DNA of 59,623 nt from Fimbriimonadaceae bacterium (GTDB lineage Bacteria > Armatimonadota > UBA10988), in NCBI GenBank assembly GCA_020850355.1, contig JADZEX010000047.1, positions 1 to 59,623 on the forward strand, in the 5' to 3' direction. The translations under genes were made by a program, and so were the position numbers. Of this stretch, positions 32,816-39,156 are shown piece after piece. How positions within the stretch are numbered: the first letter of the stretch is position 1; each line of letters starts with the position of its first letter. The notes beneath the pieces were generated by a model, which saw only the letters and a program-made list of their open reading frames with translations, was not told the origin of the DNA and did no database searches.

Positions 32816-33136
32816 CAGGTCCTCGACGCACCGCTCGCTACCGCCGAGCCTTGGGCGGTGGTGGGTGGCGGGTCGCGCAGCACACTCTGGGTCAGCCTGC
32901 TGGCCAGCCTGCTCGGGCGGCCGCTCCGACCGCTGCCGGAGGTGGACTCCGCGCTCGGGGCGGCGCTGTGGGCAGCGGCCAGTGTCGGCCTGGCGGTCGA
33001 GCCGAGCGCCGCGGAGTCGGCCGTCTGCCAGCCCGACCCGGAGGCCCAGGCGCAGCTCGCCGCGGCCTTTGAGCGGTACCAGCAGGCCCACGTGGCGCTG
33101 GCCGGGTTCTACGCCAGCCTGGCGACCCGAGCCTAG
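32816..33136 (+). pseudogene. 3' remnant of an FGGY carbohydrate kinase (xylulokinase-like)
   Basis: About 105 codons match the C-terminal end of xylulokinase: WAVVGGGSRSTLWVSLLASLLGRP (nucleotide and sugar-binding GGGxRSxxW motif), then ALGAALWAAASVGLA, a PDPE segment and a FERYQQAHVALAGFY helix. A whole enzyme has about 480-500 residues. The N-terminal three quarters, including the first FGGY domain, are absent, and no other frame supplies them, so it is a truncated, inactive remnant. The stop overlaps the converging aldolase stop. It points to a lost pentose pathway at this site. Confidence 0.75.
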
Positions 33137-34131
33137 CTGGTGCCTTCCAGCATCTGGTCGTAGAACGCGACGATGCTGCCGGGCTCGTCGACTTCCATGT
33201 ACTTCATGGCGTCGCGCGGGTGGCAGTTGAGCTGCCCGGTGATCATGTAGGCCAGGTCGTAGCCCCACTTCATCTGCGTCCGCAGCCGCGGGATGGCGGT
33301 TTCGAGGCACTCCAGCACCGGCCGCAGGTGATACTTCGGGTTCTTCAGGAAACCGAGCAGCAGCTCCAACGGGCAGTTGCCGGCGCCGCGGCCGAGGCCG
33401 GCGACCGTCGCGTCGAGGCGGTTAACACCCAGCACAATCGCCTCGACCGTGTTGGCGTAGGCGAGCTGCAGGTTGTTGTGGGTGTGGATCCCAATCTCGA
33501 TGTTGGTGCCCTCGACCGCGCGCTGGTACTTGCGGGTGAGGTACTGGATCTCTTCGGAGTACATCGCGCCGAAGCTGTCGACCAGGTAGATGGTCCCAAC
33601 CGGCGTCGCCGCGAGGGCTGCCAGGGCGTCGTCGAGGTCGTTTTCCTGGACCGTCGAGGCGGCCATGATGTTGACCGTCGTCTCGTAGCCCTTGTCGGTG
33701 GCGTCCTGGATCATCGCGATGGCGGTCGGGATCTGGTGGACGTAGGTGGCGACTCGCACGACGTCGAAGACGCTGGCCTCGCAGGGCAGGATATCGTGAT
33801 GGTAGTCGGTGCGCTCGGCATCGGCCATCATCGTCAGCTTCAGCTCGGTCGGGTTGTCGCCGACGATGCGCCGCACGTCGTCCTCGACGCAGAACTTCCA
33901 ATCGCCGAACTTGTCGCGGGAGTAGATCTTTTGGTCGGCCTTGTAGCCGAACTCCATGTAGTCGACCCCGGCGGCGACACAGCAGTCGTAGATGGCTTTG
34001 ACGAAGCCGTCTTCGAAGCGGTGGTCGTTCATCAACCCGCCGTCACGGATGGTGCAGTCGAGTACCTTGATCTCAGGACGGTATGTCACCCACGTCCCCT
34101 TGCTGGTCGATTGGCTCTGCGTGTCGCTCAC
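33133..34131 (-). CDS. DRE-TIM family aldolase (HMGL-like)
   Basis: 332-residue metal-dependent aldolase/lyase of the HMG-CoA lyase, homocitrate synthase and 4-hydroxy-2-oxovalerate aldolase group. The catalytic loop reads LDCTIRDGGLMNDHRF (DGG in place of DRE). The metal site IGIHTHNNLQLA holds the HxH pair, followed by NRLDATVAGLGRGAGNCPLELLL. Members of this subgroup are often next to cell-surface sugar genes, but the substrate is unknown. GTG 34131 has GGAG 6 nt upstream. A TTGACG-N17-TAGTTT promoter lies at 34177-34205, divergent from the SUF regulator promoter. Confidence 0.88.
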   Translation of the reverse strand: MSDTQSQSTSKGTWVTYRPEIKVLDCTIRDGGLMNDHRFEDGFVKAIYDCCVAAGVDYMEFGYKADQKIYSRDKFGDWKFCVEDDVRRIVGDNPTELKLTMMADAERTDYHHDILPCEASVFDVVRVATYVHQIPTAIAMIQDATDKGYETTVNIMAASTVQENDLDDALAALAATPVGTIYLVDSFGAMYSEEIQYLTRKYQRAVEGTNIEIGIHTHNNLQLAYANTVEAIVLGVNRLDATVAGLGRGAGNCPLELLLGFLKNPKYHLRPVLECLETAIPRLRTQMKWGYDLAYMITGQLNCHPRDAMKYMEVDEPGSIVAFYDQMLEGTS

Positions 34132-34276: not shown

Positions 34277-34305
34277 TTGACAGGTTCTGGACCCGGATAC
34301 ATAGT
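34277..34305 (+). promoter_or_regulatory. Putative SUF operon promoter
   Basis: TTGACA (34277-34282), a 17-bp spacer and CATAGT (34300-34305). The predicted start near 34312 falls inside the palindrome at 34306-34316. The leader would be about 45 nt before the regulator ATG 34357. Confidence 0.6.
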
Positions 34306-34316
34306 TAACCAGGTTA
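34306..34316 (+). promoter_or_regulatory. Putative operator palindrome
   Basis: TAACC-A-GGTTA directly follows the -10 box and covers the predicted transcription start. It is the only clear palindrome in this promoter region and matches the placing of an autorepressor site for the MarR-family protein encoded next. Binding is inferred from position. Confidence 0.5.
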
Positions 34317-34356
34317 CAGATTTGGGCCGGGCGACCGGTGGGGGCGTGGCAACGCG

Positions 34357-34920
34357 ATGGTGGTGACACCGCACGGCATGACGACGGCGAAGCTGCTGGC
34401 GCAGACGGTGCGCCTGGTGACCGAAGGTCTGGTGGAAGAGACCTTCCGCCAGGTCGCCGAGTTGGGCGAGACGCTGACCGCCGCGCAGTTTGAGGTACTG
34501 CGGTTCATCGATCGCCACGAACGCCCCACGATCGGCGAGGTGGCCGAGGCGCTGCATATCTCGAGCGCCGCCGCGACGAAGTCCGTGAGCGGCCTCGAGG
34601 AGCGCGCCCGGCCGCTGGTGCAGCGCTCCCGCGGGGCCGACCGGCGGACGGTTCGGCTGGCTACCACCGCCGCCGGCAATGCCCTGGTGAACACAGTGCG
34701 GGCGACCTTCACGGGACGCCTGGAAGCGGTGCTCGAACGCATGGGCAGCGCTGAGCAGGCGCGGCTGGAAGAGGGTCTGCGGGCCTTTCTGGCGGCAGCG
34801 CTGGTGACCGCGGGCGACTGCGACGCGGCCTGCTTGCGGTGCGGCATCGACCACAGCGAGAGCTGTCTGGTCCACCTCGCCGAGGTCGGGCTGGTCGGCC
34901 CGCGCGAACGACGTTGTTGA
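34357..34920 (+). CDS. MarR-family regulator with C-terminal Cys cluster, likely SUF operon regulator
   Basis: 187 residues. Residues about 10-145 form the MarR winged helix: the recognition region EVAEALHISSAAATKSVSGLEERAR and the wing RSRGADRRTVRLATTAAG. Unlike typical MarR proteins, it adds a Cys-rich C-terminus, with Cys155, Cys159, Cys162 and Cys170 spaced C-x3-C-x2-C-x7-C, and a final Cys187. Such spacing suits an Fe-S cluster or a metal. The gene heads the operon for Fe-S cluster assembly, 14 bp before the DUF59 gene, so it may sense cluster status as SufR or IscR do in other bacteria, from a different fold family. Fe-S binding is inference. A palindrome at 34306-34316 over the predicted start is a candidate operator. 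Confidence 0.85.
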   Translation: MVVTPHGMTTAKLLAQTVRLVTEGLVEETFRQVAELGETLTAAQFEVLRFIDRHERPTIGEVAEALHISSAAATKSVSGLEERARPLVQRSRGADRRTVRLATTAAGNALVNTVRATFTGRLEAVLERMGSAEQARLEEGLRAFLAAALVTAGDCDAACLRCGIDHSESCLVHLAEVGLVGPRERRC

Positions 34921-34934
34921 GTTGAGGGAGCCGT

Positions 34935-35249
34935 ATGGCGACGCAAGAAGAGGTTCTGGAGGCGCTGAAGGACTGCTACGACCCGGAGATCCCGATCAAT
35001 GTCGTGGACCTCGGGCTGGTCTACGGCGTGGCGGTCGACGAAGCGGGCGAGGTCCTGGTGGACCTGACCTTGACCAGCATCGGCTGCCCGATGGCCGGGG
35101 AGCTGGTGGCGCAGGTGTCGGAGGCGGCAAAGGCTGTCGAGGGCGTTGCCGGCGTGCAGGTCAACCTGGTCTGGTCGCCGCCCTGGTCGCCGCAGTTGGC
35201 GACCGACGATGGCAAGCAGCAGTTGGCGATGATGGGGATTCCGGTCTGA
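34935..35249 (+). CDS. DUF59/MIP18-family Fe-S assembly protein (SufT-like)
   Basis: 104 residues. It has the family marks DPEIPINVVDLGLVY (Asp16-Pro-Glu) and TSIGCPMAGELV with the conserved Cys51. Proteins of this family (SufT, PaaD, CIA2) help mature Fe-S proteins, and SufT genes usually lie in suf operons, as here. It is preceded by GAGGGAG and lies 14 bp after the regulator and 25 bp before sufC. Confidence 0.92.
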   Translation: MATQEEVLEALKDCYDPEIPINVVDLGLVYGVAVDEAGEVLVDLTLTSIGCPMAGELVAQVSEAAKAVEGVAGVQVNLVWSPPWSPQLATDDGKQQLAMMGIPV

Positions 35250-35274: not shown

Positions 35275-36045
35275 ATGGCAGACGGAGCAGAGTTGGTGAT
35301 CCGCGACCTGCGGGCGACCGTCGCGGGCAAGGAGATCCTCAAGGGCGTCAACCTGACGCTTGGCGCCGGCGAGCGGCATGTCTTGCTGGGCGCCAACGGC
35401 TCAGGCAAGTCCACCCTGGCCTACGTCCTGATGGGCCACCCCAACTACACCGTGACCGGCGGCAGCGTCGAGTTCGCCGGCCAGGATCTGCTGGCGCTGG
35501 AGCCCGACGAGCGCGCCCGGCTGGGGCTCTTCCTGGCCTTCCAGTACCCCAAAGAGATCACCGGCGTCACGGTCAGCAACTTCTTGCGCACCGCGGTCGA
35601 AGCGACGCGCGGTGAGAAGGTCAGCCTGCGCGAGTTCAGCAAGCTGCTGACCGGCCACATGGCGACCTTGGAGATGCAGCCCGAGTTCGCCCGGCGCTAT
35701 CTCAACGAGGGCTTCTCCGGCGGCGAGCGCAAGCGCAACGAGATGCTGCAACTGCTGGCCCTGCAGCCGAAGCTGGCGATTCTCGACGAGACCGACTCCG
35801 GGCTCGACGTGCAGATGCGCCAACTCGTGGCCAACGTCGTGCGCGAGCTGGCCAGCAGCAACACCGGCTTCCTGGTGGTCACCCATTACGAGGATGTGGT
35901 GCGGCAGATGCAGCCGCAACACGTGCATATCATGCTGGACGGACGGATCGCGATGTCGGGCGGGCTCGAGCTGGTCGAACGGCTCGGCGCCGAGAAGAGC
36001 TTCGACTGGGTCCGCGAGGAGGTCTCCCATGGCGCAGTCAACTGA
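35275..36045 (+). CDS. sufC: Fe-S cluster assembly ATPase SufC
   Basis: 256-residue ABC-type ATPase that powers the SufBCD scaffold in the cytosol. Walker A is GANGSGKST, the signature is [15 protein letters not shown] (the SufC form), Walker B and D-loop are [12 protein letters not shown], and the switch His is in VVTHYEDVV. It is preceded by AAAGGAA. The last 17 nt overlap sufB, so the two are coupled. Confidence 0.98.
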
Positions 36046-37477
36046 CCTCAGTGCTACCGCTGCCGCCGAGCATCAGGAGCTGCGCGACCTGCGTGGCGAC
36101 TACGCTGAGCGGTACGGCTTCCACGATACTCGGGACAGCGTTTTTGAGACCGAGCGCGGCCTCACCGAGCGCGTCGTGCGGACCATTTCGGAGCAGAAGA
36201 ACGAGCCGGCCTGGATGCTCGAGAAGCGCCTGGAGGGCCTGCGCCACTTCCACGAGCGGCCGATGCCGCAGTGGGGCGGCGACCTCACTGGGATCGACTT
36301 CGACTCGATTGTCTACTATGCCCGGCCGTCGGAGCGTAGCGAGACCTCCTGGGACGAGGTGCCCGACGACATCAAGAACACCTTCGACAAGCTGGGGATC
36401 CCCGAGGCCGAGCGCAAGTCGCTGATTGGCGGCGTCGGCGCGCAGTACGACAGCGAGGTGGTCTACCACTCGCTGCGCAAGCAGTGGGAAGACCTCGGCG
36501 TGCTGTTCCTGTCGCCCGAAGAGGCGCTGGCGAACCACCCCGAGCTGGTGCAGGAGCACTTCGGGACCATCATCCCGTACAACGACAACAAGTTTGCGGC
36601 GCTGAACACCGCGGTCTGGTCGGGCGGTTCGTTCATCTACGTCCCGCCGGGCGTCCAGGTGGACATCCCGCTGCAGGCCTACTTCCGGATCAACAGCCAG
36701 AACGTCGGGCAGTTCGAGCGGACCATGATCATCGTCGACGAGGGCGCCTTCGTCCACTACGTCGAGGGCTGCACGGCGCCGATCTACAGCAAGGACAGCC
36801 TGCATTCGGCGGTCGTCGAGATTGTCATCAAGCGCGGCGGGCGCTGCCGTTACACGACCATCCAGAACTGGTCGAACAACGTCTACAACCTGGTCACCAA
36901 GCGCGCCGTAGCCTACGCCGACGCGACGATGGAGTGGGTCGACGGCAACCTCGGGTCGAAGCTGACGATGAAGTACCCCGCGGTCTACCTGGTCGAGCCC
37001 GGCGCCCACGGTGAGATCCTCTCGATCGCCTTTGCCGGACGCGGGCAGCATCAGGACGCTGGCGGCAAGGTGGTCCACGCCGCGCCGCAGACGACCAGCC
37101 GGATCATCAGCAAGTCGATCAGCAAAGACGGCGGACGCAGCAGTTACCGCGGCCTGGTGAAGGTCTACGAGAACTGCCTCGGGGTCCGCTCGAATGTCGT
37201 CTGCGACGCGCTGCTGCTCGATCCGCAGTCGCGGTCGGACACCTACCCCTACATGGAGGTGGCCGAGCAGCAGGTCGATATCGGCCACGAGGCGACCGTC
37301 TCGCGGGTCGGCGAGGAGCAGCTCTTCTACCTGATGAGCCGCGGCCTGACCGAAGACCAGGCGATGGGGATGATCGTCAACGGCTTCATCGAGCCGATCG
37401 TCAAGGAACTGCCGATGGAGTACGCGGTCGAGATGAACCGCCTGATCCAGTTGCAGATGGAAGGCTCGATCGGCTAG
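36029..37477 (+). CDS. sufB: Fe-S cluster assembly protein SufB
   Basis: 482-residue scaffold subunit where the cluster is built. It has the typical beta-helix core: [57 protein letters not shown], the [13 protein letters not shown] segment, and the C-terminal [24 protein letters not shown] 36029 overlaps the end of sufC by 17 nt. Length is normal. It is the largest gene of the operon and is followed 30 bp later by sufD. Confidence 0.98.
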
Positions 37478-37507
37478 CGCGGCGAGCGACCGAGGACGGA
37501 GGACGTG

Positions 37508-38797
37508 ATGAGTGCAGCCACCGGTTTCACGGTGGACCAGGTCCGCGCGCTGGCAGCCCGCCACGACGAGCCCGCCTGGCTGCTGGAGCAGCGGCTGGCG
37601 GCGTTCGAGGCCTGGCAGGCGGCGCCCTACCCGAGCTCGCAGGACGAAGACTGGCGGCGCAGCGACTTCCGCCACCTCGACCTGGAGCGCGGCCTGCCGC
37701 TGGTGACTCCCAACGGCGGTGCCCACCCGCGCCCCGACGCGGCCGACGCGGCCGGCTTCCTGAGCTTCTGCGACGGCCAGCTCGCCGCCCAGCGCCTGGC
37801 GCCGGAGCTCGAGGCGGCGGGCGTCGTGCTCTGTCCGCTGCACACCGCGCTGCGGACCCACGGCGACCTGATCCGCGATAGCCTGATGACGCGCTGCGTG
37901 CCGGTCGACGAAGACCCCTTCACGCGGCTGCACGCCGCGCTCTGGACCGCCGGCACGTTCCTCTACGTCCCCGACGGTGTCACCGTCCCGGCGCCGCTGC
38001 TGTCGGCCGTGCAACTGAGCCACGGGGGTGTCGCGGCGCTGCACCACACGCTGGTGATCGCCGGCAGCGGCGCCCAGGTGGAGGTCGTCGAGGAGTCCAG
38101 CGGCGGCAGCGCCGACCGCACGCTCTCGGTGCCGGTCGTCGAAGTCCTCGCCGGCAGCGGCTCACAGGTCGGCTTCAGTGCCATCCAGACCTGGCACCAC
38201 GGCGTCACCGAAGTGGCCCACCGCCGCGTCTGGACCGGGCGCGATGCGCAGGTGCGGCTGACCGTCGGCAGCCTCGGTTGTCAGATGGTCAAGAGCTTCG
38301 TCGGCGCCGTGCTGGCCGGCGAGGGTGGCAGCGCCAAGCTGGCGGGGATCTACTTCCCCGAGGGCGGGCAGCACCTCGACTACACGACCATGCAGGACCA
38401 CCGCGTGCCGCACTGCACCAGCGAGTTGCTCTTCAAGGGCGCGCTCTACGACCGTGCCCAGGCGATCTTCCGCGGTGTCGTGCGGGTGCGGCCCGAGGCA
38501 CAACAGACCGACGCCTACCAGACCAACAACAACCTGCTGCTGGGCCAGGAAGCACGCGCCGACTCGATGCCGGTCCTCGAGATTGAGGCCGACGACGTCA
38601 AGTGCAGCCACGGCGCGACGCTGGCGCACCTTAACGACGAGGATCTCTTCTACCTGCGCAGCCGCGGCCTCGAGAGTGGGACCGCCCAGCGGATGGTGAT
38701 CGCCGGGTTCTTTGAGCCAGTGCTGACGACCATCCCACTGACCAGCCTGCGCGAGCAGTTGCAGCAAGCCGTGCGCGAACGGATTGCGCAGCACTGA
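37508..38797 (+). CDS. sufD: Fe-S cluster assembly protein SufD
   Basis: 429-residue partner of SufB in the SufBC2D complex. It shares the SufBD fold: SSQDEDWRRSDFRHLD at the N-terminus, TFLYVPDGVTVPAPLL, the DHRVPHCTSELLFKGALYDRA segment, TNNNLLLGQEARADSMPVLEIEADDVKCSHGAT, and DLFYLRSRGL. ATG 37508 has GGAGGA 4 nt upstream. The cysteine desulfurase gene sufS, usually next in suf operons, is not present. Confidence 0.97.
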   Translation: MSAATGFTVDQVRALAARHDEPAWLLEQRLAAFEAWQAAPYPSSQDEDWRRSDFRHLDLERGLPLVTPNGGAHPRPDAADAAGFLSFCDGQLAAQRLAPELEAAGVVLCPLHTALRTHGDLIRDSLMTRCVPVDEDPFTRLHAALWTAGTFLYVPDGVTVPAPLLSAVQLSHGGVAALHHTLVIAGSGAQVEVVEESSGGSADRTLSVPVVEVLAGSGSQVGFSAIQTWHHGVTEVAHRRVWTGRDAQVRLTVGSLGCQMVKSFVGAVLAGEGGSAKLAGIYFPEGGQHLDYTTMQDHRVPHCTSELLFKGALYDRAQAIFRGVVRVRPEAQQTDAYQTNNNLLLGQEARADSMPVLEIEADDVKCSHGATLAHLNDEDLFYLRSRGLESGTAQRMVIAGFFEPVLTTIPLTSLREQLQQAVRERIAQH

Positions 38798-38847: not shown

Positions 38848-39156
38848 GTGGCGGAGTTGGTGCGAGTCGCCGCGTGGGGCGACATTCCGGAGGGCGGCAC
38901 GCTGCGAGTGCACGCCGACCAGCGCTGGATCTGCCTCTACAAGGTGGCCGGCGAGGTCTACGCGACAGCCGACGAGTGCAGCCACGCGGTGGCCTCGCTG
39001 GCCGACGGGAAGGTCACCGGCCACACCGTGGAGTGTCCGCGGCACGGCGCGAAGTTCGACATTCGGACCGGCAAACAGCTCTGTTTCCCGGCGGTGACCC
39101 CGGTCCGGCGCTACGCAGTGGTCGTGACGGGCGACGAGGTCAGCTTGCAGGTGTGA
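38848..39156 (+). CDS. Rieske-type [2Fe-2S] ferredoxin
   Basis: 102 residues with the Rieske motif C44-x-H46 (DECSHAVAS) and C63-x2-H66 (VECPRHGAKFD), as in dioxygenase-type ferredoxins. It lies 50 bp after sufD, as in other suf operons that end in a Rieske ferredoxin and where it may supply electrons for cluster assembly. GTG 38848 has GGGAGA upstream. The last 17 nt overlap the converging SpoIID-like gene. Confidence 0.92.
   Translation: MAELVRVAAWGDIPEGGTLRVHADQRWICLYKVAGEVYATADECSHAVASLADGKVTGHTVECPRHGAKFDIRTGKQLCFPAVTPVRRYAVVVTGDEVSLQV

Follow-up and report, generated by a model that had tools for sequence, protein, structure and literature searches.

Iron-sulfur (Fe-S) assembly machineries recruit regulators of the Rrf2 (IscR and RisR) and ArsR-like (SufR) types, these being the types named in the RisR paper (PMC9973013). 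The locus described here raises the question of whether a protein of a different family, MarR, can hold the same position. It lies in a 59,623-nucleotide contig of a Fimbriimonadaceae bacterium (phylum Armatimonadota; JADZEX010000047.1), the whole of which is referred to here as the window. The gene in question (forward strand, 34357 to 34920; 187 aa), identified from its open reading frame, Pfam matches, nearest solved sequences, and predicted fold, stands at the head of a compact cluster on one strand that continues with genes for a SufT-like protein (35249 being the end of a gene that starts at 34935; PF01883; 113.5 bits with TIGR02945, which is below the cut-off of that model), the SufC ATPase (35275 to 36045; ABC_tran match and synteny), SufB (36029 to 37477; start codon uncertain), SufD (37505 to 38797; profile match), and a Rieske-type ferredoxin (38848 to 39156; profile match). 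This gene order and the short gaps bear out the sequence-only reading of the region, in which the regulator headed a suf operon. A gene on the reverse strand (33133 to 34131), which we take from the sight of its sequence to be aldolase-like, is divergent from the regulator gene, and the candidate operator described below sits between the two.

The assignment of the protein to the MarR family, also made in that reading, is upheld by Pfam scores above the cut-offs (MarR_2, 35.2 bits against 27; MarR, 32.0 bits against 24.6), by the nearest solved sequences, and by the predicted structure, which has the MarR topology of a winged helix, a DRR motif in the wing, and long C-terminal helices, and whose core finds MarR proteins as its best Foldseek matches. 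The wing residues D95, R96, and R97 are invariant in a 14-row alignment, and the α5-α6 dimer typical of MarR is the arrangement predicted by the model. The mean pLDDT of the AlphaFold model is 65.6 and that of residues 146 to 187 is below 50, so the structure of the tail is of low confidence. The fold and the helix-turn-helix are held in common with the MarR family proper (MepR, YusO, Rv1404, and MexR), whereas the solved relatives lack the cysteine tail considered below: none of 53 PDB sequences (E values of up to 1e-10) matched beyond position 149 of the 184-position profile.

An initial search (E values of up to 1e-8) recovered relatives in 23 of 61 genomes, and a profile built from 14 sequences was used to find relatives in 291 genomes of the phylum. 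Among the matches listed, the profile scores show a gap from 108 down to 88 bits; above this gap, matches run into or near the cysteine tail, and below it they stop short of the tail. The loci behind the high-scoring matches represent, after reduction, 98 distinct members, for each of which the first recognized same-strand gene within 400 nt downstream was taken as its context. An Fe-S gene is next in 63 of the 98 loci, all from Armatimonadota (IscS, 35; IscU, 18; ApbC/Mrp, 6; SUF, 4); two loci (L113 and L114) were counted as SUF because their "ApbC" match reflects the shared SufT domain. The 35 loci without such a gene by the 400-nt rule comprise 3 with IscS 596 to 1,079 nt away, 17 lone members of family f34 (see below), and 15 with no Fe-S context. 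These last belong to families f10, f11, f27, f30, f41, and f44, have K or T at the helix position discussed below, and mostly lack a matching operator (L071 has one); their sampled neighbors include triosephosphate isomerase, URO-D, and PRA isomerase, among others. With 4 of 98 members adjoining suf genes and IscS and IscU the commonest neighbors, the idea of SUF as the family's general partner is rejected. A scan of contigs with a narrow pattern matched three, all from Armatimonadota, and a plasmid search with one member of family f7 returned none. As a separate observation, the order MarR gene-IscS-RpoD-like sigma factor recurs in 19 of the 98 loci across several families (e.g., L087:8214-9293 and L085:7838-8950).

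At other suf loci in the phylum, sufC is preceded by a gene for an Rrf2 protein (L103, L106, L111, and L112) or a SufR-like protein (L102 and L105); the MarR gene thus fills the slot held by known Fe-S regulators in the suf loci of relatives. The window genome itself encodes four Rrf2 proteins that score over the cut-off, one of them with a C-x5-C-x5-C motif (L117; G000:C52:20679-21065), a possible second Fe-S regulator. Given these four proteins, another regulator may also govern the suf operon, and the MarR protein need not act alone.

The promoter of the window operon is of the sigma-70 type (TTGACA-17-CATAGT; forward strand, 34277 to 34305; 10 of 12 matches, against a mean of 0.0 in shuffles). 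Directly 3' of its −10 hexamer lies the palindrome TAACC-A-GGTTA (34306 to 34316), the core of a candidate operator, TTAACCAGGTTAC (34305 to 34317), that overlaps the expected transcription start and has similar sites in relatives. The palindrome had been placed on the predicted transcription start, and the end of the promoter at 34305 agrees with this; the broader description of it as lying over the gene's own start holds for the transcription start (center at 34311, about 6 bases past the −10 hexamer) but not for the start codon, which comes 40 bases after the palindrome. In the 6,671,784-base window genome, TAACCnGGTTA has a single occurrence, as has a reversed control pattern, and TTAACCnGGTTAA, allowing up to one mismatch, has two sites, one in the suf promoter and one in a sigma-70 gene promoter. 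The latter site (G000:C23:45820-45832) follows a TACAAT hexamer, and a site of this kind stands before the orthologous sigma-70 gene in all four genomes of the window's family, f1 (1, 1, 2, and 1 mismatches, the last three being those of G001, G002, and G003 with 1, 2, and 1). Outside that family, one genome (G020) has two tandem perfect copies of the operator before a MarR-sufC-sufB cluster. Of the 98 upstream regions, 12 have an exact TTAAn5TTAA and 34 have one with no more than a single mismatch, where dinucleotide shuffles give expectations of 0.42 and 9.8; the site often lies right after the −10 hexamer. The window palindrome is more than a chance occurrence. In most other genomes, genome-wide counts of the bare patterns are not above those of the reversed control (e.g., 8 against 11 in G232), so that bare patterns alone define no regulon there.

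Two further candidates at these promoters were rejected. Superoxide dismutase has an exact site upstream of its gene in G003 and none at the orthologs in the window genome and G001 (best, 5 to 6 mismatches). The sigma factor of the MarR-IscS-sigma order is not the f1 target sigma factor: it is nearer a protein encoded on G000:C37 (54 to 59%) than L193 (41 to 43%); the sigma gene with the operator in the window's family is another one.

Family f34 offers a view of a probable regulon in trans. Its regulator gene mostly stands alone, and its promoter and that of sufC share TTTAGCCACGCTA. In 10 genomes that we selected from those f34 genomes that have a member, this 13-mer has 59 sites, against 1 for the reversed control. 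All 59 were examined, and 46 of them precede sufC (8), feoB (8), sufD (8), the regulator gene (6), a cysteine-synthase-like gene (5), a Rieske gene (4), a DUF1028 gene (4), ApbC/Mrp (2, both classified by eye), or an ABM-domain monooxygenase gene (1). The sites lie just past the −10 hexamer or, for feoB, between the hexamers; both placements would suit repression.

The four-cysteine motif emphasized in the sequence-only reading, C155-x3-C159-x2-C162-x7-C170, is present in the window protein, and its conservation among homologs divides it: three of the cysteines are kept and the fourth is not. C-x2-C-x7-C (C159, C162, and C170, candidate cluster ligands; forward strand, 34831 to 34866) is invariant in the 14-row alignment and present in 96 of the 98 members (95 by pattern and L157 by its tail sequence, outside the scan), whereas C155 (codon at 34819 to 34821, forward strand) occurs in 1 of 98, the window protein itself, which rules out a four-cysteine motif as a family feature. 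Two members of family f33 (L153 and L156) are natural variants without the cysteine tail, yet they stand ahead of IscS and a sigma gene. Members with N at helix position 75 have a further cysteine 11 residues past the third in 42 of the 45 with a readable tail (e.g., L032, L133, and L142); in the K and Q types, a fourth cysteine is not conserved, and glycine often takes the corresponding position. A histidine occupies the position of H166 in 43 of the 98 members.

The nature of the targets and the three closely set cysteines make Fe-S sensing the likeliest signal, and we consider it probable that the gene encodes a dimeric MarR-fold protein, presumably an Fe-S-sensing repressor of Fe-S biogenesis, that works like IscR and SufR and belongs to neither of their families. 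For the window protein, we infer binding to the above sites, repression, and an Fe-S cluster in the tail. In the mechanism we propose, the cluster would be held by C159, C162, and C170, with a cysteine as the fourth ligand in one clade; the cluster-bound dimer would occupy TTAACCnGGTTAA over the transcription start and block its own gene together with sufTCBD-Rieske, and probably also the sigma-70 gene elsewhere in the genome. Under cluster shortage or damage, the apo form would release the DNA and the operon would be induced.

The same tail could serve a different chemistry. A CxxC plus a further cysteine is also a zinc motif, and the regulatory role could be right with the tail sensing by zinc binding or thiol oxidation instead of an Fe-S cluster. 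The zinc-dependent MarR proteins AdcR and ZitR are among the weak matches of the window regulator, and the fourth cysteine of the N-type members would suit zinc as well. The targets, however, are genes for Fe-S assembly, iron uptake, and cysteine supply and not zinc genes, the K and Q types lack that fourth cysteine, and a histidine at the H166 position is found in fewer than half of the members. We regard sensing of this kind as a minority possibility.

That the MarR protein itself recognizes the palindromes is suggested by its predicted recognition helix (residues 70 to 81; forward strand, 34564 to 34599), in which residue 75 (K in the window protein; codon at 34579 to 34581) tracks the operator. 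TAAGn3CTTA accompanies Q75 in 19 of 24 rows and any other residue in 0 of 74, TAACCnGGTTA accompanies K75 in 7 of 24 and others in 0 of 74, and TTAGCn3GCTA accompanies N75 in 12 of 46 and others in 0 of 52, with the proviso that the motif classes were defined on the same promoters after inspection and that the rows are related, so that Fisher values overstate the association. None of the three motifs occurs exactly in the R, M, and T rows (n = 4), and 17 of the 24 K and 34 of the 46 N members lack an exact class motif, including the IscS-first N members. In three genomes (G234, G235, and G236), a Q paralog has an AAG site and a K paralog has an AACC site; each copy having its own class, the site goes with the protein and not with the genome. 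On a tree of 96 of the 98 rows (two fragments left out), N requires 2 changes, K requires 6, and Q requires 3. L115, which has K and is placed next to the N clade, and L092, which has Q and is placed next to the window's K clade, each have the operator class that matches their residue, on weak branches that come with a long-branch warning. Residue 75 and the operator in the gene's own promoter thus agree at the level of sequence, also between paralogs.

This agreement bears on the rather unlikely alternative that the palindromes are sites for some other regulator of iron or Fe-S metabolism (Rrf2, DtxR-like, or Fur-like) of which the MarR gene is just one more target. The presence of feoB in the f34 regulon would suit a general iron regulator, and the Rrf2 proteins of the window genome supply candidates; against it, the operator class follows residue 75, it follows the paralog rather than the genome in G234 to G236, and the two displaced members, L115 and L092, carry the operators of their own residues, weak as those branches are. 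Much less probable is an ordinary MarR protein that answers a small organic ligand and stands before suf by accident: the core is plain MarR in fold and in sequence, and 15 of the 98 members have no Fe-S context, but 63 stand ahead of Fe-S genes, 96 keep the tail, and the f34 regulon has the content given above. A diverged SufR, which would share the place, the inferred role, and a winged helix with three cysteines, is barely credible, as the window regulator has no match to TIGR02702 at E values of up to 1, against 105.7 and 90.1 bits for the SufR-like proteins of the phylum, and its tail differs.

Like SufR (an ArsR-like winged-helix protein of cyanobacteria and actinobacteria), the window regulator heads a suf operon and would be autoregulated through three cysteines and an Fe-S switch, but it belongs to a different protein family, and SufR-like proteins exist separately in the same phylum. 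IscR and RisR, like the MarR family described here, head isc, iscS-iscU, or suf operons with Fe-S-dependent control (for the MarR family, a putative one); they differ in fold and in cysteine spacing, and the window regulator has no match to PF02082 (Rrf2/IscR) at E values of up to 0.1. The cysteine spacing of IscR/Rrf2 is C-x5-C-x5-C, which the window regulator lacks; it has C-x2-C-x7-C instead. A further comparison is ArnR of Corynebacterium, for which the source describes a winged helix likened to MarR/ArsR, three conserved cysteines towards the C terminus, a demonstrated [4Fe-4S] cluster, control of nitrate reductase and hmp, and no significant homology to known O2/NO regulators (PMC12343034). 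ArnR shows that a winged-helix protein with three cysteines can hold a [4Fe-4S] cluster, although Cys179, Cys193, and Cys223 of ArnR are far apart and the three of the window regulator are closely set (PMC12343034).

The sequence-only reading had cast a MarR protein with its own operator in the role of SufR or IscR. The phylum-wide context, the recurring promoter palindromes, the f34 regulon, and the helix-operator agreement sustain that proposal, which has been amended in having three cysteines rather than four and IscS and IscU as commoner partners than SUF. On the computed results, namely MarR membership, three conserved cysteines, Fe-S context, recurring palindromes, f34 regulon content, and residue-operator agreement, we lean towards a third, independently evolved class of Fe-S-sensing regulators of Fe-S biogenesis, with a MarR fold and widespread in Armatimonadota, which would control suf/isc and Mrp, the supply of cysteine, the uptake of ferrous iron, and, in some lineages, a sigma factor, and whose DNA code would have changed with one helix residue (K, AACCnGGTT; Q, AAGn3CTT; N, TAGCn3GCTA). 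Literature searches, with a coverage that lay mostly outside subscription journals, found no MarR-fold regulator of Fe-S biogenesis. If the proposal is right, the MarR fold would represent a further independent origin of feedback on Fe-S assembly, and a regulator and its regulon would be named for a phylum in which few experiments have been done; the tie of the operator to a single recognition-helix residue is testable.

The f34 sites also extend beyond the recognized regulon. Of the remaining 13, 1 lies near repeats that we take to resemble DnaA boxes, and 12 lie in a short repeat that carries the regulon palindrome (L279, L281, L286, L297, L238, L258, L288, L289, L298, and L300; genomes G199, G201, and G206), twice and 77 bases apart in L286 and L297; one possibility is that the repeat is a small element, mobile or intergenic, which makes use of the operator. 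In 4 of the 10 f34 genomes (G198:C1:2317036; G199, G203, and G205), the operator stands right after the −10 hexamer of the DUF1028 gene, a hint of function for an uncharacterized family.
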